DNA from: a virus
Length of the DNA: 40,135 bases
Strand: one strand, 5' to 3'
Virus record (IMG/VR): IMGVR_UViG_3300045922_000567
Coordinates: 1-40,135 of that record
Positions 7,430-34,331 of the stretch are shown here, one piece after another (positions within the stretch are counted from its first letter, which is position 1; every line of letters begins with the position of its first letter). The translations under genes were made by a program, and so were the position numbers. The notes under the pieces are model-generated. The model searched no databases, was not told where the DNA came from, and was given only the letters and a program-made list of their open reading frames with translations.

Positions 7430-8947
7430 GTGGCACCCCGTCGCGCGGCTGGACCGGTCCCGGGTCTCTGGGACCGGCTGGTGGCGGTCTTCGCTCCTCG
7501 GCGGTCCGGGTGGCGCCTTGTCGGCGCGGCTGCCCAGCGCGGGTATGATGCGGCGTCCCGCGGTCGCGGCACGGAGGGCTGGCGCGCGATCGGCGGCGGG
7601 AGCGCGGACGCCGAGATCGCGGCCGCAGGCGCCACGCTGCGCGAGCGGATGCGCGATCTGGTGCGCAACGATCCCCTCGCCGCCAAGGCCGTCCAGGTTC
7701 TGGTCTCGAACATCGTCGGCACCGGCATCCGGCCGCGGGCGGCGGGGCCTGACCCGGCGGCGAACCGCGCGGCCGACGCGGTGTGGGCGGAATGGTCGCG
7801 CGTCGCGGATGCCGACGGGCACACGGATTTCCACGGGCTGACCCAGCTCGCGGTGCGCGAGATGATCGAGGGGGGCGAAGTCTTCGCGCGCCGCTTCCGG
7901 CGTTCGCTGACGGACCGACTGCCGGTGCCGCTGCAGATCCAGCTTCTTGAGGCCGACCACCTCGACAGTGCGCGTTTTGACCAGCGGCCGGACGGCTCGC
8001 GGATCGTGCAGGGGATCGAATACGACAGCCTCGGGCGGCGGCGGGCCTTCTGGCTCTTTCCGGATCACCCGGGCGATCCCTCGCCCATCTTCGGCCGCAG
8101 GTTCGAGTCGGTGCGGGTCGACGCCGCCAATGTAACGCATCTCTTCGAGCGGCAGCGGGTGCAGAACCGCGGCGTGCCCTGGGGCGTGCCGGCCATGCGG
8201 GCGCTGCGCGATCTCGGGGACTGGCACACCTCGGAGCTCACGCGCAAGAAGATCGAGGCGTCCATGGTGGCCTTCGTCTTCGGGGCGGACGACGAGCAGC
8301 AGTCTCTGGCGCCGGTGGTGCTGGACGCGGAAGGGAAGAGGGTCGAGCAGTTTGAGCCGGGCCTGATCGGCTATGTCCGGCACGGAAAGGACGTGAAATT
8401 CAATGCGCCTGGGTCCACCTCGGGGATCTACGAGTGGAACCGGGTGCAGCAGCACATCATCGCCGCCGGCTTCCGGGTGCCCTATGAGCTTCTGACGGGC
8501 GATCTTTCCCAGGTCAACTTCTCGTCCTCGCGGGTCGGTCTGTCGGAGTTCCGCCGGATGGTGGAGGCGGTGCAGTGGCACACGGTGATCCCGCAGTTCT
8601 GCGAGCCGATCTGGCGCTGGGTGATGGAGGTGGCGGCCACCATGGGCCGCATTCCTGACCCGGATATCCCCGCGGAGTGGGGACCGCCCAAGTTCGAGAG
8701 CGTCAATCCGCTGCAGGACGTGCAGGCCGACATCCTCGAGGTGCGCGCCGGATTCGCCACGGTGCAGCAGATGATCGCCAAGCGCGGCTACGACCCTGAC
8801 GAGATCATGCGTGAATGGTCGGCCTTCGCCGCGCTGTGGGATGCCGCGGGCCTCGTGTTCGACACCGACCCGCGGCGCGTGACCAAGGGCGGCCAGACGC
8901 AGACGCCGCAACAAGGCGCGGATGGCGCTTCTTTACAGGACGGATGA
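7430..8947 (+). CDS. Portal protein, lambda gpB family
   Basis: A 505-aa protein starting at GTG 7430, three bases after the gpW-like stop. Family landmarks include the N-terminal RGYDAASRGRGTEGWRA, LVRNDPLAAKAVQVLVSNIVGTGIRPRA near residues 75-105, the GGEVFARRFRR strand region, NVTHLFERQRVQNRGVPWGVPAMR, and the long clip/stem helix with PYELLTGDLSQVNFSSSRVGLSEFRR. It forms the dodecameric DNA channel at the head vertex. An in-frame ORF extends upstream to 7136 but overlaps the gpW-like gene and is not protein-like. The 3' end overlaps an upstream alternative start of the next gene (ATG 8922). Confidence 0.93.
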   Translation: MAPRRAAGPVPGLWDRLVAVFAPRRSGWRLVGAAAQRGYDAASRGRGTEGWRAIGGGSADAEIAAAGATLRERMRDLVRNDPLAAKAVQVLVSNIVGTGIRPRAAGPDPAANRAADAVWAEWSRVADADGHTDFHGLTQLAVREMIEGGEVFARRFRRSLTDRLPVPLQIQLLEADHLDSARFDQRPDGSRIVQGIEYDSLGRRRAFWLFPDHPGDPSPIFGRRFESVRVDAANVTHLFERQRVQNRGVPWGVPAMRALRDLGDWHTSELTRKKIEASMVAFVFGADDEQQSLAPVVLDAEGKRVEQFEPGLIGYVRHGKDVKFNAPGSTSGIYEWNRVQQHIIAAGFRVPYELLTGDLSQVNFSSSRVGLSEFRRMVEAVQWHTVIPQFCEPIWRWVMEVAATMGRIPDPDIPAEWGPPKFESVNPLQDVQADILEVRAGFATVQQMIAKRGYDPDEIMREWSAFAALWDAAGLVFDTDPRRVTKGGQTQTPQQGADGASLQDG

Positions 8948-8951
8948 ATCC

Positions 8952-10937
8952 ATGGACGAGACCACCCTTCTGATCCCGCCGCTTGTGCGGGCGGCTACCG
9001 CGTCGCTGCTTGATCGCGACGGCGAGCGCATCGTCGAGGTCGTCTGGACGACCGGCGCCACAGTTCAGAGGCGTCGGCGCGCAGGCTGGGACGAGGCCGA
9101 GGAATACGACGAGGAGCTTGTCGTCGCGCCGGGGTCCGTGCGCCTCGAGCGGATGCAGGCCGGGGTGCCGTTTCTGGACGGTCATCGCGGCTGGTCGGTG
9201 GCTTCGGTGCTGGGCTCGGTTGAGCCTGGTTCTGTGCGGATCGAGGGTGGGCGCGGGATCGCCCGTGTGCGGCTGACGGATGCGCCGGACGCGCAGCCTG
9301 CGATCCAGCGCGTGCTGGAGAAGCACGTCGCGATCTCGGTTGGCTACCGGGTGCATCGCTACGAGATCATCCGCCGCGAAGGTCAGCGCGAGCTCTGGCG
9401 CGCTGTCGACTGGGAGCCGCTGGAAATTTCGGCCGTGCCCATTCCGGCCGACGCAGGCGCGCACATCCGGGCGGACGAGATTCGAGATTGCGCGCCGAAC
9501 AACTGCACGATCATCCGGGCCGAGGCGCCCGCCACCATCCAGGAAAGGAGTTCGTCCATGTCCGACGATATTGTCGCCTCGGCTTCGAATGCCGAGACCC
9601 GCGCTGTGCCGGTCACGGCGTCGCCGCCCGCAGCGGAAATCGACGCTGCGCGTGCGGAGGCCAATCGCACCGCTGCGGAGATTCTGCGCATCTGCGAGCG
9701 CCATGGGCTGCCGCATGGCTTCGCTTCTGAGTTGATCGAGCGCGGGGCGACGCTTGATCAGGCGCGCGCAGCGGTGCTGGACCGTCTGGCGCAGGACGAC
9801 ATGATCGGGGCGCGGCGCGCGGAGCCGGCGCCGGCCGCGCCGCGCTCGACCGGAGCGTCGGATGCGGCCTATCGCGACGCCATGTCGGAGGCGCTGCTGC
9901 ACCGCCATGCGCCCTCGGAATTCGCGCTGACGGATCGGGGCCGCGAGTTCCGCGGGCTGACGCTGATCGAGCTGGCGCGGCACACGCTCGAAAGGCGCGG
10001 GATCTCGACCCGGGGCATGTCGAAGATGGAAGTGGCGACCGAGGCGCTCCTGGGTCGCGCCGGGCTGCACTCCACCAGCGACTTCCCCTTCATCCTCGCG
10101 AATGTGGCGAACAAGACGCTGCGGCAGGCCTACGAGTCCACGCCGCGGACCTTCACCGCCTGGGCGCGGCAGCGGACCATCGTCGACTTCAAGCCGGTGT
10201 CGGTCACGCAGCTCGGCGGCGCTCCCTCGCTGCTGGCGGTGCCGGAGTCGGGGGAATTCACCTACGGCACGATCGGCGAGGGTCGCGAGGTCTATGCGCT
10301 GCTCACCTACGGGCGGATCGTTGGCATCACGCGGCAGGTGCTGGTGAACGACGATCTCGACGCATTTACCCGCGTGCCGGCGGCCTACGGCGCGGCGGCT
10401 GCGGACCTCGAGTCGGATATTGTTTACTCGATCCTCACCGGAAACCCGCTCATGGCGGACGGGCAGCCGCTGTTCCACAGCTCGCACGGCAACCTCGGGA
10501 CCGCCGCGGCGATCACCGAGGCGTCGCTGGCCGAGGCCTACCGCCTCTTCGGCAACCAGCGTGGGCTTGACGGGCGGCAGATCAGCGTCCTGCCGCGCTT
10601 CATCATCACGCCGCCCGGCGCGCGGTCGGTGGAGGCGCGGAAGAATGTGACCGCGACGACGCCGGACTCCGTCGGTGGTGTGAACCCCTTCGCGAACCGC
10701 CTTGAGCCGATCGAGGAGGCGCGCCTGATCGCGGCGTCGGGTCCCGACCCGTGGTTCCTCGCGGCGGACCCGGCGCGGATCGATACGGTCGAGTATGCCT
10801 ATCTCGAAGGCCAGCAGGGCGTCTACACCGAGGTCCGGCAGGGCTTCGAGGTGGACGGGATCGAGATCAAGGCGCGGCACGACTTCGCCGCGAAGGCGAT
10901 CGACTGGCGCGGCCTCTTCCGCAACGCCGGCGTGTGA
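8952..10937 (+). CDS. Prohead protease-major capsid fusion
   Basis: A 661-aa polyprotein. Residues 1-~190 form an HK97-type prohead serine protease: VPFLDGHRGWS with His78 and HVAISVGYRVHRYE with Ser129. Residues ~203-330 form an Ala/Arg/Glu-rich helical delta/scaffold-like segment, and ~330-661 an HK97-fold major capsid protein (FPFILANVANKTLRQAYE, GRIVGITRQVLVNDDLDAF, PLFHSSHGNLG). Such fusions occur in many alphaproteobacterial phages. A strong internal ribosome site and in-frame ATG at 9558 would give free scaffold-capsid in excess. The start could be ATG 8952 (AGGACGG upstream) or ATG 8922, which overlaps the portal gene. Confidence 0.9.
   Translation: MDETTLLIPPLVRAATASLLDRDGERIVEVVWTTGATVQRRRRAGWDEAEEYDEELVVAPGSVRLERMQAGVPFLDGHRGWSVASVLGSVEPGSVRIEGGRGIARVRLTDAPDAQPAIQRVLEKHVAISVGYRVHRYEIIRREGQRELWRAVDWEPLEISAVPIPADAGAHIRADEIRDCAPNNCTIIRAEAPATIQERSSSMSDDIVASASNAETRAVPVTASPPAAEIDAARAEANRTAAEILRICERHGLPHGFASELIERGATLDQARAAVLDRLAQDDMIGARRAEPAPAAPRSTGASDAAYRDAMSEALLHRHAPSEFALTDRGREFRGLTLIELARHTLERRGISTRGMSKMEVATEALLGRAGLHSTSDFPFILANVANKTLRQAYESTPRTFTAWARQRTIVDFKPVSVTQLGGAPSLLAVPESGEFTYGTIGEGREVYALLTYGRIVGITRQVLVNDDLDAFTRVPAAYGAAAADLESDIVYSILTGNPLMADGQPLFHSSHGNLGTAAAITEASLAEAYRLFGNQRGLDGRQISVLPRFIITPPGARSVEARKNVTATTPDSVGGVNPFANRLEPIEEARLIAASGPDPWFLAADPARIDTVEYAYLEGQQGVYTEVRQGFEVDGIEIKARHDFAAKAIDWRGLFRNAGV
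9541..9560 (+). promoter_or_regulatory. Internal Shine-Dalgarno and start for capsid-only product
   Basis: AGGAAAGGAG at 9541-9550 lies seven bases before an in-frame ATG at 9558, which is codon 203 of the protease-capsid gene and exactly at the protease/scaffold boundary (MSDDIVAS...). It is one of the strongest ribosome sites in the window. Initiation here would yield a 459-aa scaffold-capsid protein without protease, as the nested lambda gene C/Nu3 pair does. Confidence 0.72.
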
Positions 10938-13112: not shown

Positions 13113-13136
13113 GGCATCTCACCAAAGGAGAACATG

Positions 13137-14075
13137 ATGGCACGAGCTCATGGGGCGCGGGCGCAGATGGCGCTTGCGTTCGAGACGACCTACGGCACCG
13201 CGCCCGTTTCGGGCTATCGGCTGGTGCCCTTCGCCAGCACCACGCTCGGCGCTGAACAGCCGCTCATCAACAGCGAGCTTCTGGGCTACGGGCGCGATCC
13301 GCTGGCCCCGATCAAGGATGCGATCACCTCGGACGGCGATGTCGTGGTGCCGATTGACGTCGAGAACTTCGGCCTCTGGCTGAAGGCGGCCTTTGGCAAT
13401 CCCATCACAACGGGTTCCGGGCCCTACACGCACGACTTCCGCTCGGGCGGCTGGTCGCTGCCCAGCATGGCCATCGAGACGGCGATGCCGGAGGTGCCGC
13501 GCTATGCGATGTATACCGGCTGCGTCTGCGACCAGCTGTCCTGGCAGATGCAGCGGTCGGGGCTCCTGACCGCCACCGCGCGGCTGGTCGCGCAGGGCGA
13601 GACCGTCGCGGGCACCTCGGCGGCGGGCACGCCGACCGCGCTCGCGCTGCAGCGGTTCGGGCACTTCAACGGGGCGATCACGCGCAACGGCACGGCGCTG
13701 GGCAACGTCGTGTCGGCCGAGGTGACCTGGTCGAACGGCATCGACCGGATCGAGACCATCCGCAACGACGGCAAGATCGACGGTGCGGACCCCGGCATGG
13801 CGTCGCTGACCGGCCGCATCGAGGTGCGCTTTGCGGACACGACGCTGGTGACGCAGGCGATCAACGGCGATTCCTGCGAGCTTGAGTTCTCGTGGAGCCT
13901 CGGGACGGATGCGAGCCTCACCTTCACCGCCCATGCGGTCTATTTGCCGCGGCCGCGGATCGAGATTCCGGGCCCGCAGGGCATCCAGGCCACCTTCGAC
14001 TGGCAGGCGGCCAAGGCCGTGAGCCCCGCCCGGATGTGCACCGCCGTCCTCGTCAACACCGTCGCCAGCTACTGA
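13137..14075 (+). CDS. Major tail tube protein
   Basis: A 312-aa protein preceded by AAAGGAG (13124-13130). ATG 13134 and 13137 are both possible; the second has the better spacing. The sequence MARAHGARAQMALAFETTYGTAP..YRLVPF, then SELLGYGRDPLAPIKDAITSDGDVVVPIDVENFGLWLKAAFG, is typical of the Phage_tube_2-type tail tube proteins, which have an Ig-like C-terminal region. It polymerises into the tail tube around the tape measure. The strong ribosome site fits a high-copy structural protein. Confidence 0.85.
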   Translation: MARAHGARAQMALAFETTYGTAPVSGYRLVPFASTTLGAEQPLINSELLGYGRDPLAPIKDAITSDGDVVVPIDVENFGLWLKAAFGNPITTGSGPYTHDFRSGGWSLPSMAIETAMPEVPRYAMYTGCVCDQLSWQMQRSGLLTATARLVAQGETVAGTSAAGTPTALALQRFGHFNGAITRNGTALGNVVSAEVTWSNGIDRIETIRNDGKIDGADPGMASLTGRIEVRFADTTLVTQAINGDSCELEFSWSLGTDASLTFTAHAVYLPRPRIEIPGPQGIQATFDWQAAKAVSPARMCTAVLVNTVASY

Positions 14076-14082
14076 GGACGGC

Positions 14083-14520
14083 ATGCTGACCCTCGACCTC
14101 ACCAACGCGCCGCAGTGGTGCGAGCTCATCCCCGGCGTGCGCGTGAAGCTGCGCCCGCTGACCACCGCGCTGATGGTGGCGGCGCTCAACGATCCGGCGG
14201 TGGCCGACCTGCCCGAGGGGACCGCAAAGGAGCGAGCGGCGCTGGCGATGGCCAAGGTGCTGGCGCGGCGTGCGATCCTTGCATGGGAGGGGATCGGCGA
14301 CGCGGACGGCAACCCCATCGATCCAAGCCCCAAGGCCATCGACGCGCTGCTCGACCTCTGGCCTGCCTTCGAGGCGTTCCAGACCCGCTACGTCGCCAAG
14401 GCCCTTGTGCTGGACGCGGAAAAAAACGCCTCTGCGCCCTTGCCGAGTGGCACTTCGGTGGGGGCGACGGCTACTGCGCAGCCTGCGGGACACCCTGTCC
14501 CGACTGCCCCGCACGGGTGA
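14083..14520 (+). CDS. Tail assembly chaperone (gpG-like)
   Basis: A 145-aa protein, MLTLDLTNAPQWCELIPGVRVKLRPLTTALMVAALND..., with helices typical of gpG-type chaperones and a low-complexity tail (SGTSVGATATAQPAG) after the frameshift site. In lambda, gpG and its frameshifted form gpGT coat the tape measure and recruit tube subunits. It lies between the tail tube and tape measure genes as expected. A canonical -1 slippery heptamer at 14421-14427 lies in the right frame. Confidence 0.83.
   Translation: MLTLDLTNAPQWCELIPGVRVKLRPLTTALMVAALNDPAVADLPEGTAKERAALAMAKVLARRAILAWEGIGDADGNPIDPSPKAIDALLDLWPAFEAFQTRYVAKALVLDAEKNASAPLPSGTSVGATATAQPAGHPVPTAPHG
14421..14466 (+). promoter_or_regulatory. Programmed -1 frameshift site in tail chaperone gene
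   Basis: The heptamer A AAA AAC at 14421-14427 is read gaA AAA AAC in the gpG frame, a classic X XXY YYZ slippery sequence inside a run of seven A. Eight bases later, CGCCC (14435-14439) can pair with GGGCG (14462-14466), enclosing a second stem CCGAG/TTCGG (14443-14447 with 14454-14458, one G-T pair). This is the layout of -1 frameshift signals in long-tailed phages. Confidence 0.82.
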
Positions 14521-14747
14521 ACCAGCCGCAGACGTGGGAGGGCGCGCAGGTCTGGGATCTGGCCCAGCGCCTCGGCGGCCAGCTGCGTGTCATCCCCGGC
14601 GCGGTGATCGGCTGGGACATGGGCGCGGCGCTGGCCCTGGGCGCGGCGCTCGGCATCTCCCCGCCCGCCATGGCCGAACTGCTGCCCGCCCTCGAGGCGG
14701 TGATGGTGCGCAAGATCAACGAACAGATCGCGGCCAGCCGCGACTGA
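14427..14747 (+). CDS. Frameshift extension of tail chaperone (gpT-like)
   Basis: After the -1 slip, translation continues for 106 codons, giving a fusion of about 221 aa. The extension has four cysteines in two CxxC pairs (CAAC and CPDC, about 14484-14510), then VNQPQTWEGAQVWDLAQRLGGQLRVIPGAVIGWDMGAALALGAALG, and ends near a conserved INEQIAASRD helix. No good independent start is present except GTG 14517, which overlaps the gpG stop. The cysteine pairs could bind zinc, a feature not found in lambda gpT. The frame is clearly coding; production by frameshift is inferred. Confidence 0.75.
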   Translation, partial: RLCALAEWHFGGGDGYCAACGTPCPDCPARVNQPQTWEGAQVWDLAQRLGGQLRVIPGAVIGWDMGAALALGAALGISPPAMAELLPALEAVMVRKINEQIAASRD

Positions 14748-14769
14748 CCCTCTCCGGAGCCCCGATCCC

Positions 14770-17211
14770 ATGGCCGAGAAACGCGTCTCCGTCCGGCTTG
14801 TCGCGGTGGGCGGTCGTCAGGTCCGCGCCGAGCTGGAAGGCATCGGCGATGCCGGCACGCGCGGAATGCGGCGGCTGTCGACCGAGATGGAGATGGCCAA
14901 CGCCCGGCTTGCGGCCTTCGCGCAGCGCGCTCGGATCGCTGCGGCGGCCGCGGCCGGGGCGCTGGCCGCAGCGGCCACGGCGGCGATCCGCTCGGCGCTT
15001 TCGACCGTCGATGCGCAGGCCAAGCTTGCGGCGTCGCTCGGTACGACGGTCGAGAGCATCCAGGTGCTCGAACGCGCGGGCGATCTGGCCGGCGTCTCGA
15101 TGGGCGAGATCGAACAGGCGACGAAGAAGCTCACCACGCGGCTGTCGGAGGCGGCTGGCGGCTCCGGCGCGGCGGCGAAGGCGCTCGAACGCCTCAACCT
15201 GAAAGCGGCCGACCTGCAGGCGCTGCCGCTCGACCAGCGCATCGCAGCCATTCAGGACGCGCTGAATCGCTTCGTGCCGGAGGCCGAACGCGCAGCGGTC
15301 GCATCGGACCTCTTCGGCGACCGCACGGCGCTGGCGTTGCTGCGGATCGACACGGAGACGCTGCGGCAGGCCGCCAGGGACGTGCGCGATTTCGGGGTCG
15401 TCGTCTCGGAGCAGGATGCGCGCCGGATCGAGCGGACGAACGACGCGATTTCGCGGCTGGGTCTGATCTGGCGCGGGCTCTCGAACCAGCTCGCGGTCGC
15501 TGCCGCGCCTGCGCTCGAGGCGGTGGCGAACGCCATGGCGGCCGTGGCGCGCACGACCGGGCCGCTCGGCATCGCGATCCGGACGCTGTTCGACAATCTG
15601 GGGCGGCTGGCCAGCTATGCCGCGACCTTCGCCGCCTTCATGGCCGGGCGCTGGGTTGCCGGGCTGGCGGCGGCGGCCCTGTCGGTGCGCGGGATGGCCA
15701 CGGCGCTGGTGGTCCTGCGCGGCGCGCTGATCCGCACCGGCATCGGGGCGCTGATCGTCGGCGCAGGCGAGCTGGTCTATCAGTTCTCGCAGCTCGTGAC
15801 CCGGGTCGGAAGCGTGGGCGAGGCGTTCCGGCTGCTGGGCGATCTGGCCAGCGAGGTCTGGTCGCGGATGGGGCTGGCGCTGGACGCGGCGCTTGCCCGC
15901 ATGGCGGCCGGATGGGAGGGGTTGAAGGCCGCGGGCCTTGAGGCGCTTGAAGGGATCGTCGAGGGCGTGGTCAGCTTCGGCGACCGGACGGTGGCGGTCT
16001 TTCAGGGTGCCTATGACGCGGCCGTGGCGATCTTTGCCAGCCTCCCGGGCGCCATCGGCGATTTCGCGTTTCAGGCGGCGAACGGGCTGATCTCGGGCGT
16101 CGAGGCGATGCTGAATGGCGTCGTGGCGCGGATCAACCGGTTCATCAATGCGCTGAACAAGGCGCTGGCCCTCCTGCCCGAATGGGCCACCGGCGAAGGC
16201 GGAGTGCGGATTGGCACGCTCGACCCGGTGGAACTGGGGCGCATCGGCAATCCCTTCGAAGGCGCCGCGACCGCAGCCGGTGCCGCCGCCGCGGATGCCT
16301 TCTCGGCCGCACTGTCGCGCACTTTCCTGGAGGCGCCCGACCTTGGCCTCGGCGCGCTGTCCGACGATGCCCGCGCGCAAGCCGAGGCCTTGCGCGAGAC
16401 GGCGGGCGTGCTGGCCGACGCCGCCGGTCAGCCGTTGGCCAGCTGGCAGGCGCTGAAGGACGCGGTGGCAGGCGCGGGAGCCGAGGGCGAGGAAGCCCTG
16501 CGCGGGGCATCGGCTGCGGCGGGGGCATTGGCTGAAGAACTTGACGAGACCGGCCGGGCGGCGGGCCGCGCCGGCGGGGCGGGGCGACAGGCGGGAGAGG
16601 ACAGCGCGGCTGGAGCCGGGCAGGCTCTCACGGGCTGGCAGGCGGTCACCGCGGCGCTGGCCGACTACGCGGCCAGGGCGCGCGACATCGGCCAGGACAT
16701 CGGCAACGCGCTGGTGGGCGCGTTCCAGCGCGCGGAGGACGCCATTGTCGAGTTCGTGCGCAAGGGCAAGCTCGACTTCCGCGACCTGGTGACCTCGATG
16801 ATCGCCGATCTGGCGAGGCTGGCCGCAAGGAAGTTCATCCTCGGCCCGCTGGCGGGGCTCCTGTCGGGCGTCCTCGGCGGCGCAGGCGGCCTGTTCGCCT
16901 CGGTGCTGCACGCGGGTGGGGTGGTCGGCGCGCCTGGTCCCGGCCGGATGGTCCCGGCGCTGGCCTTCGCCAATGCTCCGCGCATGCACGCGGGCGGTTG
17001 GGCCGGGCTGCGCCCCGACGAGGTGCCTGCCATCCTGCAACGCGGGGAGCTGGTGCTGTCGCGCAAGGAGGCGGCGCGCTACGGCCAGTCGGACGCGCAG
17101 CCCGTCAACATCACGATCATGGCGCGCGACGTCGAGAGCTTCCGCCAGTCGCGGACGCAGATTGCCGCTGACATCGCCCGTGCCGTGGCGCTGGGCAGGC
17201 GAGGCATGTGA
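14770..17211 (+). CDS. Tail tape measure protein
   Basis: An 813-aa protein. The N-terminus is helical and Ala-rich (MAEKRVSVRLVAVGGRQVRAELEGIGDAGTRG...), followed by LGTTVESIQVLERAGDLAGVS. Hydrophobic segments span about residues 277-340 (AATFAAFMAGRWVAGLAAA...). The C-terminal part matches lambda-gpH-like tail measure proteins (RKGKLDFRDLVTSMIADLARLAARKFI, about 663-690, then LHAGGVVGAPGPGR and VPAILQRGELVLS). It sets tail length and helps DNA pass the inner membrane. At 813 aa it predicts a tail of very roughly 120 nm by the usual 0.15 nm per residue rule. Confidence 0.93.
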   Translation: MAEKRVSVRLVAVGGRQVRAELEGIGDAGTRGMRRLSTEMEMANARLAAFAQRARIAAAAAAGALAAAATAAIRSALSTVDAQAKLAASLGTTVESIQVLERAGDLAGVSMGEIEQATKKLTTRLSEAAGGSGAAAKALERLNLKAADLQALPLDQRIAAIQDALNRFVPEAERAAVASDLFGDRTALALLRIDTETLRQAARDVRDFGVVVSEQDARRIERTNDAISRLGLIWRGLSNQLAVAAAPALEAVANAMAAVARTTGPLGIAIRTLFDNLGRLASYAATFAAFMAGRWVAGLAAAALSVRGMATALVVLRGALIRTGIGALIVGAGELVYQFSQLVTRVGSVGEAFRLLGDLASEVWSRMGLALDAALARMAAGWEGLKAAGLEALEGIVEGVVSFGDRTVAVFQGAYDAAVAIFASLPGAIGDFAFQAANGLISGVEAMLNGVVARINRFINALNKALALLPEWATGEGGVRIGTLDPVELGRIGNPFEGAATAAGAAAADAFSAALSRTFLEAPDLGLGALSDDARAQAEALRETAGVLADAAGQPLASWQALKDAVAGAGAEGEEALRGASAAAGALAEELDETGRAAGRAGGAGRQAGEDSAAGAGQALTGWQAVTAALADYAARARDIGQDIGNALVGAFQRAEDAIVEFVRKGKLDFRDLVTSMIADLARLAARKFILGPLAGLLSGVLGGAGGLFASVLHAGGVVGAPGPGRMVPALAFANAPRMHAGGWAGLRPDEVPAILQRGELVLSRKEAARYGQSDAQPVNITIMARDVESFRQSRTQIAADIARAVALGRRGM

Positions 17212-17837
17212 TGGCGTTCCACGAAGTGCGGTTCCCGGATGACATCAGCCGTGGCGCACGGGGCGGGCCGGAGCGGCGCACGCAGATCGTCGAACTGGCC
17301 TCGGGCGCTGAGGAGCGCAACGCCAGCTGGGCCAATTCGCGCCGCCGCTATGACGTGGCCTATGGCATCCGCCGCGCCGATGATCTGGCGGCGGTCGTGG
17401 CCTTCTTCGAGGCCCGCAATGGCCGTCTCCACGGCTTCCGCTTCAAGGACTGGGCCGACTTCAAGTCCTGCCTGCCATCGCAGACGCCCGCGCCGACCGA
17501 TCAGCCCATCGGCACCGGCAACGGGTCGGCGACGCAGTTCCAGCTGGTCAAGCGCTACACCTCGGGCAACCAGACATGGGTGCGGGCCATCACCAAGCCC
17601 GTTGCCGGGACGGTGACCATCGCCCTGAACGGCACGCCGCAAGGCTCGGGCTGGTCGGTCTCGACGGCCACTGGCCTCGTCACCTTCACCACGGCGCCCG
17701 GCAATGGCGTTGCCATCACCGCAGGCTTCGAATTCGACGTCCCCGTGCGCTTCGACACCGACGCGATGGACGTTACCCTTGACATCGAGCGGCTCGGATC
17801 GATCACCTCCATACCTCTTGTGGAGATCCGCACGTGA
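17211..17837 (+). CDS. DUF2460 distal tail protein (GTA gp12-like)
   Basis: A 208-aa protein whose ATG overlaps the tape measure stop (ATGTGATG). It reads MAFHEVRFPDDISRGARGGPERRTQIVELASGAEERNASWANSRRRYDVAYGIRRADDLAAVVAFFEARNGRLHGFRFKDW... and ends with MDVTLDIERLGSITSIPLVEIR. This is the DUF2460/TIGR02217 family, homologous to gene g12 of the Rhodobacter gene transfer agent, where it forms the distal tail ring. Unlike the GTA, a lysis cassette follows before the DUF2163 gene. The stop overlaps the next GTG start. Confidence 0.9.
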   Translation: MAFHEVRFPDDISRGARGGPERRTQIVELASGAEERNASWANSRRRYDVAYGIRRADDLAAVVAFFEARNGRLHGFRFKDWADFKSCLPSQTPAPTDQPIGTGNGSATQFQLVKRYTSGNQTWVRAITKPVAGTVTIALNGTPQGSGWSVSTATGLVTFTTAPGNGVAITAGFEFDVPVRFDTDAMDVTLDIERLGSITSIPLVEIRT

Positions 17838-18184
17838 GCAGCGACAAGGGCATCTGGCATCTTGTGCTGGTTGAACTGGCGGCGACGCAGGCGCTGATCC
17901 TTGCCGCCTGGGGCGCGCTCGGCGGTGCGACCAATGCCCTGACCACGCGGATGCGACTGCGCGACGCGCTGCGCCACGTCCTGCTTGGCGCTTTGATTGC
18001 GGTGGGCATGGGCAGCCTTTCGATGGCGCTCGTCACCGCCTGGCTTGGCCTGCCGCCGCAGGCGATTCCCGCGGGCGGGGCGGCGGGCTCGGCCGCCTAT
18101 CTCGTCGGTGTCTTCGGACCGGCCTTCATCGAGCTTGTCCTTGCCCGGCTGCGCGGTGCGAAGGGAGGGGCAGACAATGAATGA
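17834..18184 (+). CDS. Holin-like membrane protein
   Basis: A 116-aa protein from GTG 17834, overlapping the DUF2460 stop (GTGA). It has an N-terminal hydrophobic segment (HLVLVELAATQALILAAWGALGGA), a central one (HVLLGALIAVGMGSLSMALVTAWLGL) and a third (AGGAAGSAAYLVGVFGPAFIELVLARL), then a charged tail. Three predicted membrane segments and the position upstream of the endolysin suggest a class I holin that permeabilises the inner membrane. The family is not certain. Confidence 0.65.
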   Translation: MSSDKGIWHLVLVELAATQALILAAWGALGGATNALTTRMRLRDALRHVLLGALIAVGMGSLSMALVTAWLGLPPQAIPAGGAAGSAAYLVGVFGPAFIELVLARLRGAKGGADNE

Positions 18185-18311
18185 CCTTCTCCGCCTCGCG
18201 CGCGCTGTTCGCTGCGATGCAAGCGATCCGGGTCAGGTGTTCAGCCACCGCCTTCGCGTCGGTCTGGCCATCGCCGCGCTGATCCTCCTCCTGTCGCTGC
18301 TCCTGAGATAA
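18177..18311 (+). CDS. 44-aa single-span membrane protein in lysis cassette
   Basis: MNDLLRLARAVRCDASDPGQ... has one strongly hydrophobic C-terminal segment (VGLAIAALILLLSLLLR). The ATG at 18177 overlaps the end of the holin-like gene, with GGGAGGGG just upstream, and the endolysin starts four bases after its stop. It is too short for standard gene callers. A second holin, antiholin or pinholin-type function is plausible from position and topology only. Confidence 0.55.
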   Translation: MNDLLRLARAVRCDASDPGQVFSHRLRVGLAIAALILLLSLLLR

Positions 18312-18315
18312 TCCC

Positions 18316-18975
18316 ATGCAGACCACCGACCGGGGCCTTCTGGCCCTCGTCCGGCACGAAGGCATCGTGCCCGGACCCTATCTCGACGTGAAGGACGTCT
18401 GGACCTTCGGCATCGGCCACACCGCCGCGGCCGGGCCGCCGGACCCCGCGACGATGCCGCGCGGCATGCCTGCCGACCTCGATGCCGGGATCCGCGAGGC
18501 CTTCCGGGTCTTCCGCACCGACCTCGCTGTCTACGAGGCCGAGGTGCGCCGCGCGGTCAAGGTGGCGCTCGCCCCGCACGAGTTCGATGCGCTGGTGTCC
18601 TTCCATTACAACACCGGCGCCATCGCCCGGGCGACGCTGACGAAACTGCTGAATTCCGGCAATCGCGCAGCAGCCGCCGACGCGTTCCTGAACTGGCGGC
18701 GGCCTTCCGCGATCATCCCGCGCCGCGAGGCCGAGCGCGACCTGTTCCGGCATGGCCGCTATCCCGGCGGCACGATCCCGGTCTGGGCCGTGGACCGCGG
18801 CGGCCGTGTCGATTTTTCGCGGCCGATCCGGCTTCTGACCGAGGGCGAGGCGCTCGCGCTTCTGCGCCCGCTCCCCGCGCTCCCCGCGCCGGCCGCCCCG
18901 CAACAGCCCGTGCCCGCGCCCGGCTGGCTTGCGCGGCTGGCAGCCTTCTTCTCCACCCTGATCCGGAGGGCCTGA
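18316..18975 (+). CDS. Endolysin, T4-type lysozyme (GH24)
   Basis: A 219-aa muramidase. The catalytic triad is plain: Glu15 in RHEG, Asp24 in YLDVKD and Thr30 in WTFGIGH, the same spacing as Glu11/Asp20/Thr26 of T4 lysozyme. ALVSFHYNTGAIARATLTKLLN follows, a conserved lysozyme segment. The C-terminal extension has a Pro/Ala linker (LPALPAPAAPQQPVPAPG) and an amphipathic WLARLAAFFSTLIRRA tail that may contact membrane. There is no signal peptide, so export through a holin is expected. It is flanked on both sides by small membrane proteins. Confidence 0.92.
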   Translation: MQTTDRGLLALVRHEGIVPGPYLDVKDVWTFGIGHTAAAGPPDPATMPRGMPADLDAGIREAFRVFRTDLAVYEAEVRRAVKVALAPHEFDALVSFHYNTGAIARATLTKLLNSGNRAAAADAFLNWRRPSAIIPRREAERDLFRHGRYPGGTIPVWAVDRGGRVDFSRPIRLLTEGEALALLRPLPALPAPAAPQQPVPAPGWLARLAAFFSTLIRRA

Positions 18976-18979
18976 TCCC

Positions 18980-19210
18980 ATGCGCTACATTCGCCCCAAC
19001 TCGCTCACCTGGTGGGCAGGGCTGCTCGCAATATTCACCGGCGTCGCCTCTCTGGCGGTGCCTGCCGATGGGGCACTGGGGGAGTTGTCTCGCCTGATTG
19101 CGCAATTGACTGGTTCAGGCGACACGTCACCGGCCGGACTGATCGCCCTGGGCCTTGGCCTGATCGGACTGCGTGACCGGATCGAGCGCGGGTTCCACGG
19201 CGATGATTGA
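18980..19210 (+). CDS. 76-aa membrane protein after endolysin
   Basis: MRYIRPNSLTWWAGLLAIFTGVASLAVPADGALGELSRLI... has one clear N-terminal membrane segment, and a second weaker one (AGLIALGLGLIGLRDRIERG) near the C-terminus. Homologous small proteins follow endolysins in many rhodobacterial and rhizobial phages; the function is not established. It starts five bases after the endolysin stop and overlaps the following 31-aa ORF. A holin or spanin-like role is possible, but no lipobox is seen. Confidence 0.6.
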   Translation: MRYIRPNSLTWWAGLLAIFTGVASLAVPADGALGELSRLIAQLTGSGDTSPAGLIALGLGLIGLRDRIERGFHGDD

Positions 19211-19298
19211 GTTCCTTGCGAGGCTAGTCGTGGGCGGTGCTGTCGGCGTGTTCGCGATGGCGCTATTCATGGCAGCCGCGGACGACGATCGGCCATGA
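19203..19298 (+). CDS. 31-aa membrane peptide
   Basis: MIEFLARLVVGGAVGVFAMALFMAAADDDRP is almost entirely one hydrophobic helix. It starts eight bases before the end of the preceding gene and its stop overlaps the next ATG at 19295 (ATGA), so it is held in place by overlaps on both sides. It is likely a real micro-gene of the lysis cassette; the function is unknown. Confidence 0.5.
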   Translation: MIEFLARLVVGGAVGVFAMALFMAAADDDRP

Positions 19299-20179
19299 AA
19301 GCCCTCTCGCCCGCGCTGCAAGCGCATCTCGACGAGGGGACAACGACGCTTGCCTGGTGCTGGCGGATCACCCGTGCCGATGGCGTCACCTTTGGCTTCA
19401 CCGACCACGACCAAACCCTCACCTTCGACGGGACCGAGTTCGAGCCGGAAAGCGGGCTGACGGCGTCCGAAGTCCGATCCGGCTCCGATCTGTCCGTGGA
19501 CGCGCAGGACGCGCAAGGCGTGCTGACCTCCGACCGGATCACCGAGACCGACATTCTCGACGGCCGATGGGACAATGCGGCGGTGGAGGTCTGGCGGGTG
19601 AACTGGTTGGACACGAGCCAGCGCGTGCTACTCCGCCGCGGGGCCATCGGCCAGATCCGGCGCGGGCGCGCGGCCTTCGTGGCCGAGGTGCGCAGCCTCG
19701 CCCATGTGCTCGGCCAGACCGTCGGGCGGACGTTCCAGGCCACCTGCGACGCCACGCTTGGCGATGCGCGCTGCGGGGTGAACATCGAAGCCCCGGCGTT
19801 CAAGGGGACCGGGGTGGTGATCGACGTGCTGCGCGACCGGGTCTTCACAGCCTCCGGTCTCGGGGGGTTCGATGCGGGCTGGTTCGCGTTCGGGTTCGTA
19901 GCGTGGACGAGCGGCGCGAACTCCGGGCGGCGGGTCGAGGTTCTCTCGCACGACCTTGTCGACGGTGTCGCCATCTTGACCCTGCTGGAAGCACCGGTGC
20001 GACCGATTGCGGCGACGGATGTGTTCGTGGTCCGGGCGGGCTGCGACAAGCGGATCGCGACCTGCGGCGCCAAGTTCAACAACGTCGCGAACTGCCGCGG
20101 CTTTCCGCACATCCCCGGTCAGGATGCAGTCCTGCGCTACGCCACCCGGGACGGCGGCCATGAGGGGGCGGTGCTGTGA
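19295..20179 (+). CDS. DUF2163 tail hub protein (GTA gp13-like)
   Basis: A 294-aa protein, MKALSPALQAHLDEGTTTLAWCWRITRADGVTFGFTDHDQTL, with the conserved C-terminal cysteine-rich segment GCDKRIATCGAKFNNVANCRGFPHIPG. This is the DUF2163/BR0599 family, homologous to Rhodobacter GTA g13, a tail-tip hub component. In GTAs and relatives the cysteine region helps bind metal in the hub. Its stop overlaps the GTG of the peptidase gene (20176-20179). Confidence 0.9.
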   Translation: MKALSPALQAHLDEGTTTLAWCWRITRADGVTFGFTDHDQTLTFDGTEFEPESGLTASEVRSGSDLSVDAQDAQGVLTSDRITETDILDGRWDNAAVEVWRVNWLDTSQRVLLRRGAIGQIRRGRAAFVAEVRSLAHVLGQTVGRTFQATCDATLGDARCGVNIEAPAFKGTGVVIDVLRDRVFTASGLGGFDAGWFAFGFVAWTSGANSGRRVEVLSHDLVDGVAILTLLEAPVRPIAATDVFVVRAGCDKRIATCGAKFNNVANCRGFPHIPGQDAVLRYATRDGGHEGAVL

Positions 20180-20622
20180 CACAGTCCGTCACGACCGCCG
20201 ATTCTGCATTGGTCATCGCCGTCGCGCGGTCCTGGCTCGGCACGCCCTATCACGACCAGGCGAGCCTCAAGGGCGTCGGCTGCGACTGCCTCGGGCTTGC
20301 GCGCGGCGTCTGGCGCGAGGTGGTCGGCCCCGAGCCGTTCGCGGTTCCACCCTACAGCCGCGACTGGGGCGAGAGCGGGCCGCACGAGGTGCTGGCCGAG
20401 GGCGCGCGGCGTGTGATGGTCGAGATCGCGCCAGCTGACGCCGGGCTCGGCGCGCTGGTGTTGTTTCGGATGATGCCCCGCGCCATCGCCAAGCATGTCG
20501 GCATCCTCAGCAGTCCCGACACCTTCCTCCATGCCTACGAGCGCGTCGGCGTGATCGAGGAACCGCTGACGTCCGCCTGGCGCCGCCGCATCGCCTTCGC
20601 CTTCCTGTTCCCTCCACGCTGA
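20176..20622 (+). CDS. NlpC/P60 tail peptidase (GTA gp14-like)
   Basis: A 148-aa cysteine peptidase starting at GTG 20176. It contains SWLGTPYHDQASLKGVGCDCLGLARGVW with the catalytic Cys38 in the D-C-x-G-L signature, and AKHVGIL with His107. In the Rhodobacter GTA the homologous g14 protein locally cuts peptidoglycan cross-links during DNA entry. It belongs to the GTA-like block with the DUF2163 and megatron genes and is distinct from the endolysin. Confidence 0.9.
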   Translation: MTQSVTTADSALVIAVARSWLGTPYHDQASLKGVGCDCLGLARGVWREVVGPEPFAVPPYSRDWGESGPHEVLAEGARRVMVEIAPADAGLGALVLFRMMPRAIAKHVGILSSPDTFLHAYERVGVIEEPLTSAWRRRIAFAFLFPPR

Positions 20623-20631
20623 GATTTTTCT

Positions 20632-23600
20632 ATGGCCACGCTTGTCCTCGGCACGCTCGGCTCCGCCATCGGCGGCGCCATCGGCGGCTCGATTCTGGGC
20701 GTCACTGCTGCGACCATCGGCGGCTTCATCGGCTCCACCATCGGCTCGGTGGTGGACAGCTGGATCGTGTCCTCGCTCGCCCCCGCGCAGAAGATCGAGG
20801 GCCCGCGGCTGGAGTCCCTGCGCATCATGTCCGCGACCGAGGGGGCGGTGATCCCGCGCCTCTACGGGCGGATGCGCATCGGCGGCAACGTCATCTGGGC
20901 GACCGATTTCCGGGAAGAGGTCAGGACCACCAGGCAGGGCGGCGGCAAGGGCGGCGGCCCCAAGGTCAAGACGACGGAATACCTCTACTTTGCCAGCTTC
21001 GCAGTAGCCTTGTGCGAAGGCCCCATCACCGGCATCGGCCGCATCTGGGCCGACGGCAAGCCGCTCGACATGACCGGCATCACCTGGCGCTGGTATCCCG
21101 GCAGCGAGACCCAGACGCCAGACCCGTTCATCGCCGCCAGGATGGGCGCCGCCAACACCCCCGCCTATCGCGGGACGGCCTATGTCGTCTTCGAGGAACT
21201 GGCGCTTTCGACCTACGGCAACCGCCTGCCGCAGCTGTCCTTCGAGGTCTTCCGGCCGCTGGCCGACCCCGACACCGCCGAGGGGCTGGTCAAGGCGGTG
21301 ACGATGATCCCCGCCTCGGGCGAGTTCGTCTATGCCACGGAGACGATCCGCAAGGGCACGGGCGGGACGACTGCGGCCGAGAACCAGAACGCAGTGCCGG
21401 ACAAAGCCGACATGGTCGTGGCGCTGGACCGGCTGCAGGCCATGGCCCCGGCCGTCGAAAGCGTCAGCCTGGTCGTGGCCTGGTTCGGCGACGACCTGCG
21501 CGCGGGCAATTGCCAGATCAGGCCGGGCGTGGAGGCGGCGGCCAAGACCACCAGCCCGAAGGTCTGGTCCGTGAATGGCGTGACGCGGGCGCAAGCCGTT
21601 CTGCTCGGCAGCGACGAAGACGGGCGTCCCGTCTACGGCGGCACGCCGGCGGATTTCGCGGTGGTGCAGGCGATCCAGGAGATGAAGGCGCGCGGGCTGC
21701 GGGTGACGTTCTATCCCTTCGTCATGATGAACGTGCCGCCCGGCAACACGCTGCCCAACCCCTACAGCGACAATGCCGCGACGCCGGGCCAGCCGGTCTT
21801 TCCCTGGCGGGGGCGGATCACCTGCTCGCCGGCGGCGGGCTTTGCCGGGAGCGTGGACAAGACGGCGGCTGCGGCGGCGCAGGTCTCGGCCTTTTTCGGC
21901 ACCGCCACCCCGGCGCAGTTCGCGGTGTCGGACGACAGCGTCAGCTGGACCGGCCCTGCGGACGAATGGGGCCTGCGCCGGATGATCCTGCACTACGCCC
22001 ATCTCTGCACGGTGGCCGGCGGGGTCGATGCCTTCCTGATCGGCACCGAGATGCGCGGGCTGACGACGATCCGCTCGAGCGCCAGCGCCTATCCTGCCGT
22101 GACCGCCTTCAAGACACTGGCGGCGGATGTGAAGTCGATCCTCGGGCCGGGCACCAAGGTCGGCTATGCGGCGGACTGGTCGGAATACTTCGGCCATCAT
22201 CCGCAGGACGGCAGCGGCGACGTGTTCTTCCACCTCGACCCGCTGTGGTCGGATGCCAACATCGACTTCGTGGGCATCGACAACTACATGCCGCTGTCGG
22301 ACTGGCGCGACGGGTTCGACCACCTCGACGCGCAGGCAGGCTGGCCCGCGATCCACGACCGCGCCTATCTGCAGGCCAACATCGCCGGTGGCGAGGGCTT
22401 CGACTGGTTCTATGCATCGGCCGCGAATCGGGCGGCGCAGGTCCGCACTCCGATCACCGATGGCGTCTACGGTAAACCGTGGGTTTTTCGCTACAAGGAC
22501 CTCCGATCGTGGTGGTCGAACCCGCATTACAACCGGCCAGGCGGCGTCGAGAGCAGCACGCCCACCGAATGGGTGCCGCAGTCTAAGCCCATCTGGTTCA
22601 CCGAGCTCGGCTGCCCGGCCATCGACCGAGGCACCAACCAGCCGAACGTCTTCTTCGACCCGAAGTCGTCGGAGAGCTTCATTCCGTATTTCTCCCGCGG
22701 CTGGCGCGACGATGCCATCCAGCGCGCCTATCTGGAGGCCCACTACCTCTGGTGGGGCGAGGCGGCGAACAACCCCATATCGACGGTCTACGGCGACCGG
22801 ATGCTCCATGTCCCCGAATGCGCCGCCTGGACCTGGGACGCGCGGCCCTATCCCTTCTTCCCGGAGCGGACGGACATCTGGGGCGATGGGCCGAACTGGA
22901 GGCTGGGCCACTGGCTGACGGGACGGCTCGGCGCGGTGTCGCTGGCGGCCCTCGTGCGGCACCTCTGCCTGCGCGCGGGCCTGCCCGAGTCCCGCATCGA
23001 TGTCTCCGGCCTCTGGGGCGCGATCGAAGGCTATGCCATCACGGCGCTCGAAAGCCCGCGTGCATCGATCACCACACTGTCGCGGCACTTCGGCTTCGAT
23101 GCCATCGAGACCGAGGGCGTGATCCGCTTCCGTCTGCGCGGCCGCGCCCCGGCAGCCACGCTGGGCACCGACGATCTGGTCGCCAGCCGCGAAGGCGAGG
23201 ACTTCGAGCTGACCCGCGGCCAGGAAACGGAACTGCCGCAGGCGCTGAAGTGGCAGGTCGCCCGTGCCGACGAGGACTATGACGCAGCCCTCGTCGAGGC
23301 GCGGCGCATCACCGTCGACACGACCCGGATCGCCTCCGAGGCCTTCCCCATGGCAATTGCCCCGGAGGAGGCTGAGCGTCGCTGCCGCCGCGCGCTGATG
23401 GAAGCCTGGATCGGCCGCGAGACCGCGACCTTCCGCCTGCCGCCCTCGCGCCTCGCGCTGGACCCCGCCGACGTGATCGGGCTCGCGCATGACGGCCGGG
23501 AGGTCGAGTTTCGCCTCGTGTCGGTCGCCGACGCCGAGGCACGCGGGATCGAGGCGCTGCGCCAGGACCGCGCCGCCTATGACCTGCCGCCCGGCGAGCC

Positions 23601-24594
23601 GCGCCCGGCGTCGCTCGCAAGCCCGGTCATTTTCGGCACACCGCAAGTCGTGATGCTCGACCTGCCGCAGCTCAGCGAGGACCAGCCCGCCCATCGCCCG
23701 CTGATCGCCGCCCATGCCAGCCCTTGGCCCGGCGAGATCGCGGTCTTCCGCAGCGCGTCCACGGACGGGTTCGCGTTGCTGACCACCTTCGGCAGCCGGG
23801 CGCGGATCGGCACGCTGGCCTTCGACCTCTTTCCCGGCCCCACCTCGCGCTTCGATCTCGGCAACGTGCTGGTGGTCGATCTTCTGTCCGGAACGCTGGA
23901 AAGCGTGACCGACGTTGCCCTGTTCGGCGGCGCCAATGCGCTGGCGGTCGAGACCGCCGCTGGCCAATGGGAGATCGTCCAGGCAGGCGCGGCCCAGCTG
24001 ATCGCTCCCCGTCGCTACCGCCTGACCCGCCTGTTGCGAGGCCAGCGCGGAACGGAGCATGCCATGGGCAACCCCGCCCCGGCCGGGGCGCGGGTGGTCG
24101 TGCTGGGCGACAGCCTTGCCGCGCTGCCCATCGCCGAGGCCGACCTCGGCCTGCCGTGGAACTGGCGCGTGGGCCCGGCCGCGCGGGCGGTCAGCGACGC
24201 GAGCTACACCGCGCTGGGCTTCACCCCGGCCGGGCGCGGCCTTGTCCCCTTCGCCCCGGTTCATGTCGAACAGCCATGGCGGACCGCGCGCGCCCCGGGC
24301 GATCTGACCATCCGCTGGACAAGGCGGTCGCGCGCGCTGGCCGCGGATGCCTGGGAGCAGGTCGAGGTGCCGCTGGCCGAAGACATCGAGGCGTACGACG
24401 TCCAGATCCTCGATGGCCAGGCCGTCAAGCGCACGCTGACCAGCAGCACGACCTCCGTGCTCTACTCGGCCGCGCAGCAGACGGCCGATTGGGGCGCGCT
24501 GCTGGGGCCCGGCCAGACGCTGGCAATCCGCATCTATCAGCTCTCGAACCGCCTCGGTCGCGGCACGCCCGCCGCGGTCACGCTGCAATTCTGA
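20632..24594 (+). CDS. Tail tip 'megatron' protein, TIM-barrel (GTA gp15-like)
   Basis: A 1320-aa protein, about the length of Rhodobacter GTA gp15. The N-terminus is a glycine-zipper-like hydrophobic stretch (GSAIGGAIGGSILGV...GSTIGSVVDSWIV, residues 8-48). A glycoside-hydrolase-like TIM barrel occupies roughly residues 440-700, with Glu in FLIGTEMRG (~472) and in WFTELGCPA (~657) placed like a catalytic pair. The C-terminal part has phage tail/fibronectin-like repeats. It forms the tail tip that contacts the envelope and receptor. No convincing Shine-Dalgarno precedes the ATG (GAGATTTTTCT), unusual for this operon. Confidence 0.92.
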   Translation: MATLVLGTLGSAIGGAIGGSILGVTAATIGGFIGSTIGSVVDSWIVSSLAPAQKIEGPRLESLRIMSATEGAVIPRLYGRMRIGGNVIWATDFREEVRTTRQGGGKGGGPKVKTTEYLYFASFAVALCEGPITGIGRIWADGKPLDMTGITWRWYPGSETQTPDPFIAARMGAANTPAYRGTAYVVFEELALSTYGNRLPQLSFEVFRPLADPDTAEGLVKAVTMIPASGEFVYATETIRKGTGGTTAAENQNAVPDKADMVVALDRLQAMAPAVESVSLVVAWFGDDLRAGNCQIRPGVEAAAKTTSPKVWSVNGVTRAQAVLLGSDEDGRPVYGGTPADFAVVQAIQEMKARGLRVTFYPFVMMNVPPGNTLPNPYSDNAATPGQPVFPWRGRITCSPAAGFAGSVDKTAAAAAQVSAFFGTATPAQFAVSDDSVSWTGPADEWGLRRMILHYAHLCTVAGGVDAFLIGTEMRGLTTIRSSASAYPAVTAFKTLAADVKSILGPGTKVGYAADWSEYFGHHPQDGSGDVFFHLDPLWSDANIDFVGIDNYMPLSDWRDGFDHLDAQAGWPAIHDRAYLQANIAGGEGFDWFYASAANRAAQVRTPITDGVYGKPWVFRYKDLRSWWSNPHYNRPGGVESSTPTEWVPQSKPIWFTELGCPAIDRGTNQPNVFFDPKSSESFIPYFSRGWRDDAIQRAYLEAHYLWWGEAANNPISTVYGDRMLHVPECAAWTWDARPYPFFPERTDIWGDGPNWRLGHWLTGRLGAVSLAALVRHLCLRAGLPESRIDVSGLWGAIEGYAITALESPRASITTLSRHFGFDAIETEGVIRFRLRGRAPAATLGTDDLVASREGEDFELTRGQETELPQALKWQVARADEDYDAALVEARRITVDTTRIASEAFPMAIAPEEAERRCRRALMEAWIGRETATFRLPPSRLALDPADVIGLAHDGREVEFRLVSVADAEARGIEALRQDRAAYDLPPGEPRPASLASPVIFGTPQVVMLDLPQLSEDQPAHRPLIAAHASPWPGEIAVFRSASTDGFALLTTFGSRARIGTLAFDLFPGPTSRFDLGNVLVVDLLSGTLESVTDVALFGGANALAVETAAGQWEIVQAGAAQLIAPRRYRLTRLLRGQRGTEHAMGNPAPAGARVVVLGDSLAALPIAEADLGLPWNWRVGPAARAVSDASYTALGFTPAGRGLVPFAPVHVEQPWRTARAPGDLTIRWTRRSRALAADAWEQVEVPLAEDIEAYDVQILDGQAVKRTLTSSTTSVLYSAAQQTADWGALLGPGQTLAIRIYQLSNRLGRGTPAAVTLQF

Positions 24595-26717: not shown

Positions 26718-26806
26718 GCAGGGCTCGTGCGCCCCGGCCGTCGACCCGCCATGATCCTCCGTGAAACGGCAGTCAACCCTTGTTCCGGCATTGTTCGTGT
26801 GCGAGT

Positions 26807-33554: not shown

Positions 33555-34331
33555 TCAGCCGGTCGCGGCCTGCGCGAGGCTGAAGACGCGAGTCGTCCAG
33601 TCGTCGCCCTGATCATCGACGACGGCCATGGCGAGGCCATGATTGGTCGCACGGTTGAAGCGGCGCTCGGTCACCCGGCCTTTCCGGCGGTCAACCACGG
33701 CGATGACGGGCGAATCGCCCGGCTGCCTGGCCTGATGCTCGACCAGCGCGTCCATGAGACGCAGGTCGCTGCCGGCGGCATAGACCCGGGCGGCCTTCCG
33801 GCCGGTGTCGCGGCGCCGCAGCAGGATGTCCGGGGACCCCGGTTCGTTGGCCGGGGCGGCCTCGACCAGAAGGGCTTCGGGAAGAGAGGCTTCGATGGCG
33901 CGCATCACGTCATCGGCGAAGGAGGCTGCGACGTTTTCGCGGCTGAGGACGAAAAGGTCGCGGGTCCGGACAAGCGCGCTGATGAACCGCAGCGCTGCCG
34001 GTCCGAGCTCGCGCTCGGGTACCGGATCGGTCCGCACGACCAGGTCTGTGTCGTAATGCGCTCCCTCCTGCGCGAGCATGTGCCGGAGCATCCCCTCACG
34101 CGCGGCGGACTTCAGGTCGAAGCCGCGGGCGAGTGCGTTCGGGATGGTGGTGCCGTCATCCTCGAACCTGAACAGCCCCCCCTCGGCCTCGACCAGATAG
34201 AAGTCGAGCGGGTCGCCGTCCGGCAGCCTGAAACCGGTTTCGATGTGATATCCGAGCGGCACCGCGGACACGGTCAGCGGTGCGCAGAGCTCGCTGCGCA
34301 GTCTGCCGATCAGGGTTTCGGGTCCGATCAA
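33555..34331 (-). CDS. DUF1828-like protein of lysogenic cassette
   Basis: A 258-aa protein starting at TTG 34331, supported by GGAGGAG eight bases upstream and by a TTGA overlap with the preceding stop. The N-terminal half (LCAPLTVSAVPLGYHIETGFRLPDGDPLDFYLVEAEGGLFRFEDDGTTIPNALARGFDL) matches DUF1828 proteins. The C-terminal half (TRDLFVLSRENVAASFADDVMRAIEAS..., SPVIAVVDRRKGRVTERRFNRATNHGLAMAVVDD) resembles DUF1829-type extensions and could be nuclease-like, though no catalytic motif is certain. It is the last gene of the repressor operon, so expected to be made in the lysogen. Function unknown. Confidence 0.72.
   Translation of the reverse strand: MIGPETLIGRLRSELCAPLTVSAVPLGYHIETGFRLPDGDPLDFYLVEAEGGLFRFEDDGTTIPNALARGFDLKSAAREGMLRHMLAQEGAHYDTDLVVRTDPVPERELGPAALRFISALVRTRDLFVLSRENVAASFADDVMRAIEASLPEALLVEAAPANEPGSPDILLRRRDTGRKAARVYAAGSDLRLMDALVEHQARQPGDSPVIAVVDRRKGRVTERRFNRATNHGLAMAVVDDQGDDWTTRVFSLAQAATG

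Follow-up and report, generated by a model that had tools for sequence, protein, structure and literature searches.

A lambda-type G/GT tail assembly chaperone is quite likely encoded by the siphovirus whose 40,135-base record was analyzed here (the window; G+C 70%). A −1 slip would join its G and T parts, and the T domain, presumably docking on the tail tube, would carry a probably zinc-binding tetracysteine module near the junction. The overlapping G and T ORFs sit between the tube gene and the tape measure gene, as in a G/GT-type locus:

13134 to 14075 (+): tail tube protein, Phage_tube_2 (Pfam PF18906, E 8.9e-59), the likely, presumed partner of the T domain
14083 to 14520 (+): gpG-like tail assembly chaperone, 145 aa, 0 frame (phrog_313, tail assembly chaperone, E 2.7e-20)
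14421 to 14427 (+): −1 slippery heptamer A AAA AAC (167 of 173 distinct loci carry a canonical heptamer here)
14435 to 14466 (+): stem-loop with arms 14435–14447 and 14454–14466, probable frameshift stimulator (pairing and codon bias)
14427 to 14747 (+): T part, −1 frame, 106 residues past the slip plus stop (model pLDDT 93.4)
14475 to 14507 (+): tetracysteine module C-x2-C-x3-C-x2-C, T residues 17, 20, 24, and 27 (Cys conservation)
14589 to 14741 (+): DUF7697 core of the T domain (PF24752, 93 bits vs a cut-off of 27)
14770 to 17211 (+): tape measure protein (PF09718, E 3.2e-23; phrog_8462, E 3.6e-205)

The order tube, G/T, tape measure, a −1 shift near the end of G, and an expected low level of the fusion are all shared with lambda gpG/gpGT. 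The final 30 residues of G, which follow AAC, form a tail rich in P, A, T, S, and G that overlaps the T frame. The model of G residues 1–115 had a pLDDT of 90.6, and its best Foldseek match in the PDB was the HK97 tail assembly chaperone 2ob9, a weak match (prob 0.63, E 0.18). Comparison of G with the HK97 chaperone by VIA was also weak (Z 4.6, rmsd 5.2, 93 residues aligned), with a protein of unknown function tying at Z 4.7. When searched by sequence against the PDB, G and T had no match with E below 0.7. A duplication of G as the origin of T was considered and rejected, as HHalign of T against G gave no match.

Frameshift site and translation of the T frame

The heptamer at 14421–14427 is in phase with the G ORF (codons GAA AAA AAC), as originally predicted, and the −1 frame is open through 14747. 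A −1 slip would therefore read 221 residues (115 up to 14427 plus 106), in line with the fusion of ~221 aa in the original prediction. This is the sole in-phase heptamer, among the ten listed kinds, in the 13 plus-strand ORFs of the window (6083 codons). By itself, the presence of the heptamer is only mildly unlikely and thus weak evidence, because synonymous shuffles of the G ORF also gave an in-phase slippery heptamer in 778 of 20000 cases. It is conservation that is decisive.

Relatives were drawn from IMG/VR, genomes, and phage records, and 230 of 232 loci (173 distinct) matched the G profile as well as the T profile. The two loci set aside were L007, in which no G was found, and L226, whose match was below the cut-off and was taken as false. 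Since L126–L205 are partly duplicate contigs of L009–L088, counts are given on distinct sequences (144 or 173). In 167 of the 173 distinct loci, diverged relatives included, T is offset by −1 from G and the junction bears a canonical heptamer (A AAA AAC in 151, G GGA AAC in 11, A AAA AAA in 4, and A AAA AAG in 1). The exceptions are L035, L123, L124, L139, L182, and L223. A run of 8 A in L035 places G and T in one frame as a single fused ORF, and L139 and L182 have 6 A where the window has 7; these run lengths are either natural variants or homopolymer sequencing errors. L223 is a broken, degraded gene. L123 and L124, together with L248, carry the non-canonical G GGG GAA at the heptamer position and retain the Cys module; in L123 and L124, T was checked and is still at −1 of G. 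The original prediction named heptamer loss among close relatives as evidence against it; such loss was looked for and not seen.

These counts support a programmed −1 frameshift that joins gpG-like and gpT-like parts, as had been proposed, with the slippage presumably taking place in the cell. The same G/T pair, in the same place and with four Cys, occurs in Rhodobacter phages RcKemmy, RcKvothe, and RcDormio (e.g., MW677517), where it is entered in GenBank as a joined CDS annotated tail assembly chaperone. The −1 frameshift itself is thus of a known kind and partly annotated already. The heptamers of the known systems differ from the A AAA AAC of the window, being G GGA AAG in lambda and G GGA AAC in the Rhodobacter phages. 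In E. coli, −1 slippage is much weaker at A AAA AAC than at A AAA AAG, according to an excerpt of PMC5009743. The paper on the Rhodobacter phage collection, in the excerpt consulted, mentions the tail-chaperone frameshift in general, without mention of a Cys module (PMC8601537).

A stem downstream of the heptamer, also part of the original prediction, was found as 13 pairs that begin 7 nt past the heptamer (z −1.7; z −2.2 for a longer stretch). Downstream stimulatory RNA structures are common, not universal, at −1 sites. A search of Rfam gave no match at E ≤ 1 within 13900–14900. In an alignment of 39 of the 40 selected relatives (L125 was omitted owing to an insertion), 90.7% of the stem cells were paired, compared to 41.6–53.8% for slid partners, and the covariation score exceeded 499 of 500 shuffles. 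Covariation support for the stem is thin: two-sided changes occur in 5 of 507 cells and 2 of 13 pairs, where slid partners reach 1–8 cells and 1–4 pairs, and two of the five stem measures fail to exceed the shuffles (206 and 175 of 500). Because two-sided changes are few, the pairing may in part just follow the conserved protein. Codon choice was also compared in the 11 distinct loci whose 0 frame ends one codon past AAC, so that overlap coding cannot account for it. Where the 0 frame is closed, the Gly12 codon is GGG in 8 of 8 Gly codons (background 29/166) and Leu5 is CTC or CTT in 9 of 9 (the commonest background Leu codon is CTG, 95/211), although these loci are related and the numbers are not independent.

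Between the heptamer and the first Cys of the module, the T frame has no ATG, GTG, or TTG in 144 of 144 distinct loci (L123 and L124 fall outside this count); the module is therefore probably made by frameshifting only. The T frame is also open 5′ of the heptamer in the window and in many relatives, so the sequence there is compatible with an upstream start in such loci. An upstream start cannot produce the module in L003, L004, and L207, where a stop closes the T frame one codon 5′ of the heptamer. Conservation of the −1 frame starts with the first codons past the heptamer (R1, W8, G11, and G13, as well as the four Cys) and extends to loci whose 0 frame ends one codon past AAC, such as L090, L092, L093, L111, and L112, which indicates that −1 translation is under selection in such loci. 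A separate T protein with its own start 3′ of the module, which would leave the Cys stretch untranslated in the −1 frame, is very unlikely in view of this conservation and that of the heptamer in 167 of 173 distinct loci. Such a start agrees with the GenBank records of Nostoc phage Nsp-JY21 (L003) and Synechococcus phage Sc-Yong805-1 (L004), in which the second gene, that of T, begins past the module, and with Pfam DUF7697 and phrog_11212, which both begin past it as well. The frame could also be changed by RNA polymerase slipping on the A run and not by the ribosome, as might be read from the 7 A of the window and the variants with 8 A (L035) and 6 A (L139 and L182). Replacement of A AAA AAC by G GGA AAC, which has only 3 A, in 11 distinct loci, including the divergent L092, L093, L225, and L227, argues against such transcriptional slippage; the X XXY YYZ pattern is maintained, and we consider a polymerase origin highly improbable.

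The tetracysteine module

The four Cys codons (14475–14477, 14484–14486, 14496–14498, and 14505–14507) place the module entirely within the G/T overlap. The extension does not open with it, as the original prediction had it, since its first Cys comes only at codon 17 past the slip. Across the 13 plus-strand ORFs of the window, Cys accounts for 37 of 6070 residues (0.61%). The four Cys are invariant in all 43 aligned T parts (33–79% identity to the window), and of 173 distinct T parts, 171 contain all four (170 by pattern and L225 by eye); the module is thus real and conserved. The pattern missed three T parts, namely L225 (four Cys with other spacing), L213 (without the first Cys), and the broken gene of L223. 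Close relatives mostly keep the x2-x3-x2 spacing (186 of 195), and divergent members have insertions between Cys 2 and 3 and between Cys 3 and 4.

Some of the loci were collected with patterns that bear on these counts: L126–L205 were found by two patterns, one of them with YCxxC and hence biased for Cys, and another set of viral loci by six patterns, one of them with two Cys. A search with the DUF7697 core, which contains neither the Cys nor the heptamer, served as a bias-free test of the conservation of both. It gave 27 loci, of which 25 have a canonical heptamer (22 A AAA AAC and 3 G GGA AAC), and all four Cys were present in 24 of the 25. The exceptions were L213, without the first Cys, the degraded L223, and L226, below the cut-off and taken as false.

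Four conserved Cys with linkers that vary in divergent members are as expected for a metal site of the structural tetrathiolate kind. The module is thus most likely a structural metal site, in which one Zn(II) would probably be bound by four thiolates. The earlier label zinc-knuckle-like is wrong: a CCHC zinc knuckle has the ligand pattern C-x2-C-x4-H-x4-C, whereas the module is CCCC, with no His at conserved positions.

CxxC pairs also serve redox proteins and clusters, and the four Cys might form disulfides, a redox switch, or an Fe-S cluster instead of a structural zinc site. We regard this as unlikely, though not far-fetched, because the linker insertions between Cys 2 and 3 and Cys 3 and 4 are typical of a structural metal site and because stable disulfides are unlikely in the cytoplasm. 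A rather improbable variant is a metal- or redox-sensitive switch, formed by the tetracysteine and present in the frameshift product only, that would gate the start of tail polymerization. Tail assembly would then depend on metal supply, and the switch would have been overlooked because T starts past the module in family models and in some annotations. The module could also act on RNA, for example on its own frameshift stem, and tune the G:GT ratio without acting on tail proteins. Small Cys-rich fingers can bind RNA and the module is encoded beside the stem; however, the four Cys are retained where the stem sequence differs, and an action on RNA is exceedingly improbable.

The T parts of lambda, HK97, and Enterobacter phage F20 each have 0 Cys downstream of the junction, which bears out the claim that the module is absent from lambda gpT. 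Among the matches listed in the open-licence literature searched (titles and abstract starts), a Cys module in a tail chaperone was not described, and no paper on DUF7697 and a single one on DUF1799 were found in that open-licence literature. Within the literature searched, the tetracysteine T-domain variant is apparently undescribed.

The T core and its relatives

AlphaFold2, run on 43 sequences, modeled the T part with a pLDDT of 93.4 and a pTM of 0.84. The least certain part of the model is the Cys region (pLDDT 74 for residues 11–20 and 84 for residues 21–30). The best viral fold match was the tape measure chaperone of Enterobacter phage F20 (prob 0.99, E 0.041), with several further tape measure chaperones below it; Foldseek E-values were weak for the viral matches. 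Comparison of the T model with the PDB by fold gave nothing at E ≤ 0.001. AhpD rows topped the VIA list for T, with Z at most 3.6, and were taken to reflect a common helical arrangement. By BLASTP, the T part had no similarity to the Cys-free T of lambda or to that of F20.

With 93 bits against the curated PF24752 cut-off of 27, the T part belongs to DUF7697. The DUF7697 (PF24752) and phrog_11212 models, of 52 and 55 positions, match the C-terminal part of T and omit the Cys module. No match to DUF1799 (PF08809) was listed for the T part of the window; the relative L097 scored 16.8 bits against DUF1799 (cut-off 26) and matched phrog_680 with E 1.8e-5. In HHalign, the core of five module-free T parts aligned with T residues 36–101 (prob 81, E 1.2e-5). 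The Cys module lies outside this match and thus looks to be an alternative N-terminal piece added to a T core that both groups share. Judged by profile comparison and structure search, the DUF7697 core is distantly related to the DUF1799-type (phrog_680) T domain of other siphophages, such as F20. Alphaproteobacterial loci with Phage_tube_2 show the same frameshift architecture for DUF1799/phrog_680 T domains, which have other linkers between the slip site and the core; the linker of F20 is without Cys. A relation of T to the Phage_TAC_18-like T group (A7) was weak (prob 8), and this link was dropped. A mixed alignment of G, T, and fusion sequences (A5) was rejected, as the G rows fell on T columns.

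Tropicimonas isoalkanivorans (G001, the genome of L104) belongs to the class Alphaproteobacteria, and DUF7697 was over the cut-off in 11 of 385 genomes of this class. It was also over the cut-off in 1 of 14 control genomes, that of Caulobacter vibrioides, and, among 149 genomes of the phylum of a Phycisphaerae MAG (G004), in the seed only. Two cyanophage records and two phage scaffolds from human feces also contain relatives. The T. isoalkanivorans genome holds six DUF7697 loci, which suggests several related prophages.

Tube association and proposed role in tail assembly

A Phage_tube_2 gene was found upstream of the module in 10 of 10 diverse Cys-module loci tested; for this test, 10 of 20 upstream ORFs were submitted, 17 of the 20 ORFs being at least 280 aa long. 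At the tube position, L004 has a gene annotated as tyrosine recombinase XerD, and the corresponding ORF of L003 is Phage_tube_2. In the converse search, the Cys module was present in 11 of 30 Phage_tube_2 loci, which were fetched from among 35 places and represent 28 genes (L251/L264 and L253/L265 are each pieces of one gene). All 11 module loci are among the 16 with a tube score of at least 131 bits, and no module was detected among the 14 with lower scores.

Of the 19 module-free Phage_tube_2 loci, 17 were scanned. Twelve have a credible T part at −1, with the same heptamer kinds; that of L252 is doubtful, and none was found in L239, L246, L251, and L264. Compared with Pfam, four of the module-free T parts gave two matches to DUF1799 over the cut-off, one below it, and one to Phage_TAC_18. 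In two of the module-free T parts, those of L256 and L259, the linker between the slip site and the core contains tandem repeats with Cys (QNTC and QENC). Cys-rich linkers may therefore have originated more than once.

According to an excerpt of PMC5009743, the binding partner of lambda G is the tape measure and that of lambda T is the tube protein. A link of the present T domain to the tube is favored by this role of lambda T together with the upstream Phage_tube_2 gene in 10 of 10 loci, which is an association only. Linked inheritance explains the association of module and tube as well as contact does. We infer that G and T have the same roles here as in lambda, toward the tape measure and the tube, respectively, with a Cys knob near their junction.

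Most ribosomes would produce gpG (145 aa), and a minority would slip by −1 on A AAA AAC, aided by the stem 7 nt downstream, and produce gpGT (221 aa). The G part would coat the tape measure protein, as in lambda, and the few T domains would recruit tube subunits and thereby start the tail. The T domain would consist of two parts, the DUF7697 core and the four-Cys module between the slip site and the core. The module would bind one Zn(II) by four thiolates and form a small rigid knob, which may either orient the T core relative to G or join the tube-docking face.

Tail assembly chaperones have short T domains that change fast, and in these families the T domain is labelled function-unknown. DUF7697 now gains a likely function as a T domain made by frameshifting. 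The metal-like site near the G-T junction offers a handle, since its four residues could be changed in a phage that forms plaques, such as RcKemmy, and the T domain, predicted with high confidence, would be a good target for a solved structure. Sequence that is made by frameshifting only drops from view: the module precedes the first T-frame start codon and was for this reason omitted by two cyanophage annotations and by both matching family models. Unlike the cyanophage annotations, the joined CDS of the Rhodobacter phages does hold the module.

Elsewhere in the window, a C5 cytosine methylase (26780–28084, +) is followed by an EcoRII-C restriction endonuclease (28089–29327, +), which together form a type II restriction-modification pair. 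An ORF with DUF1828 at 33555–34763, on the minus strand as the putative coding strand, matches the candidate defence model PDC-M24B. A prohead protease is fused to the major capsid protein at 8922–10937 (+; NF045541, E 4.6e-231). The tail tip genes at 17208–24594 (+) contain DUF2460, Gp84_N/BR0599, NlpC, and GTA_TIM/Rcc01698_C, a set that, taken as a whole, presumably resembles that of the gene transfer agent RcGTA.
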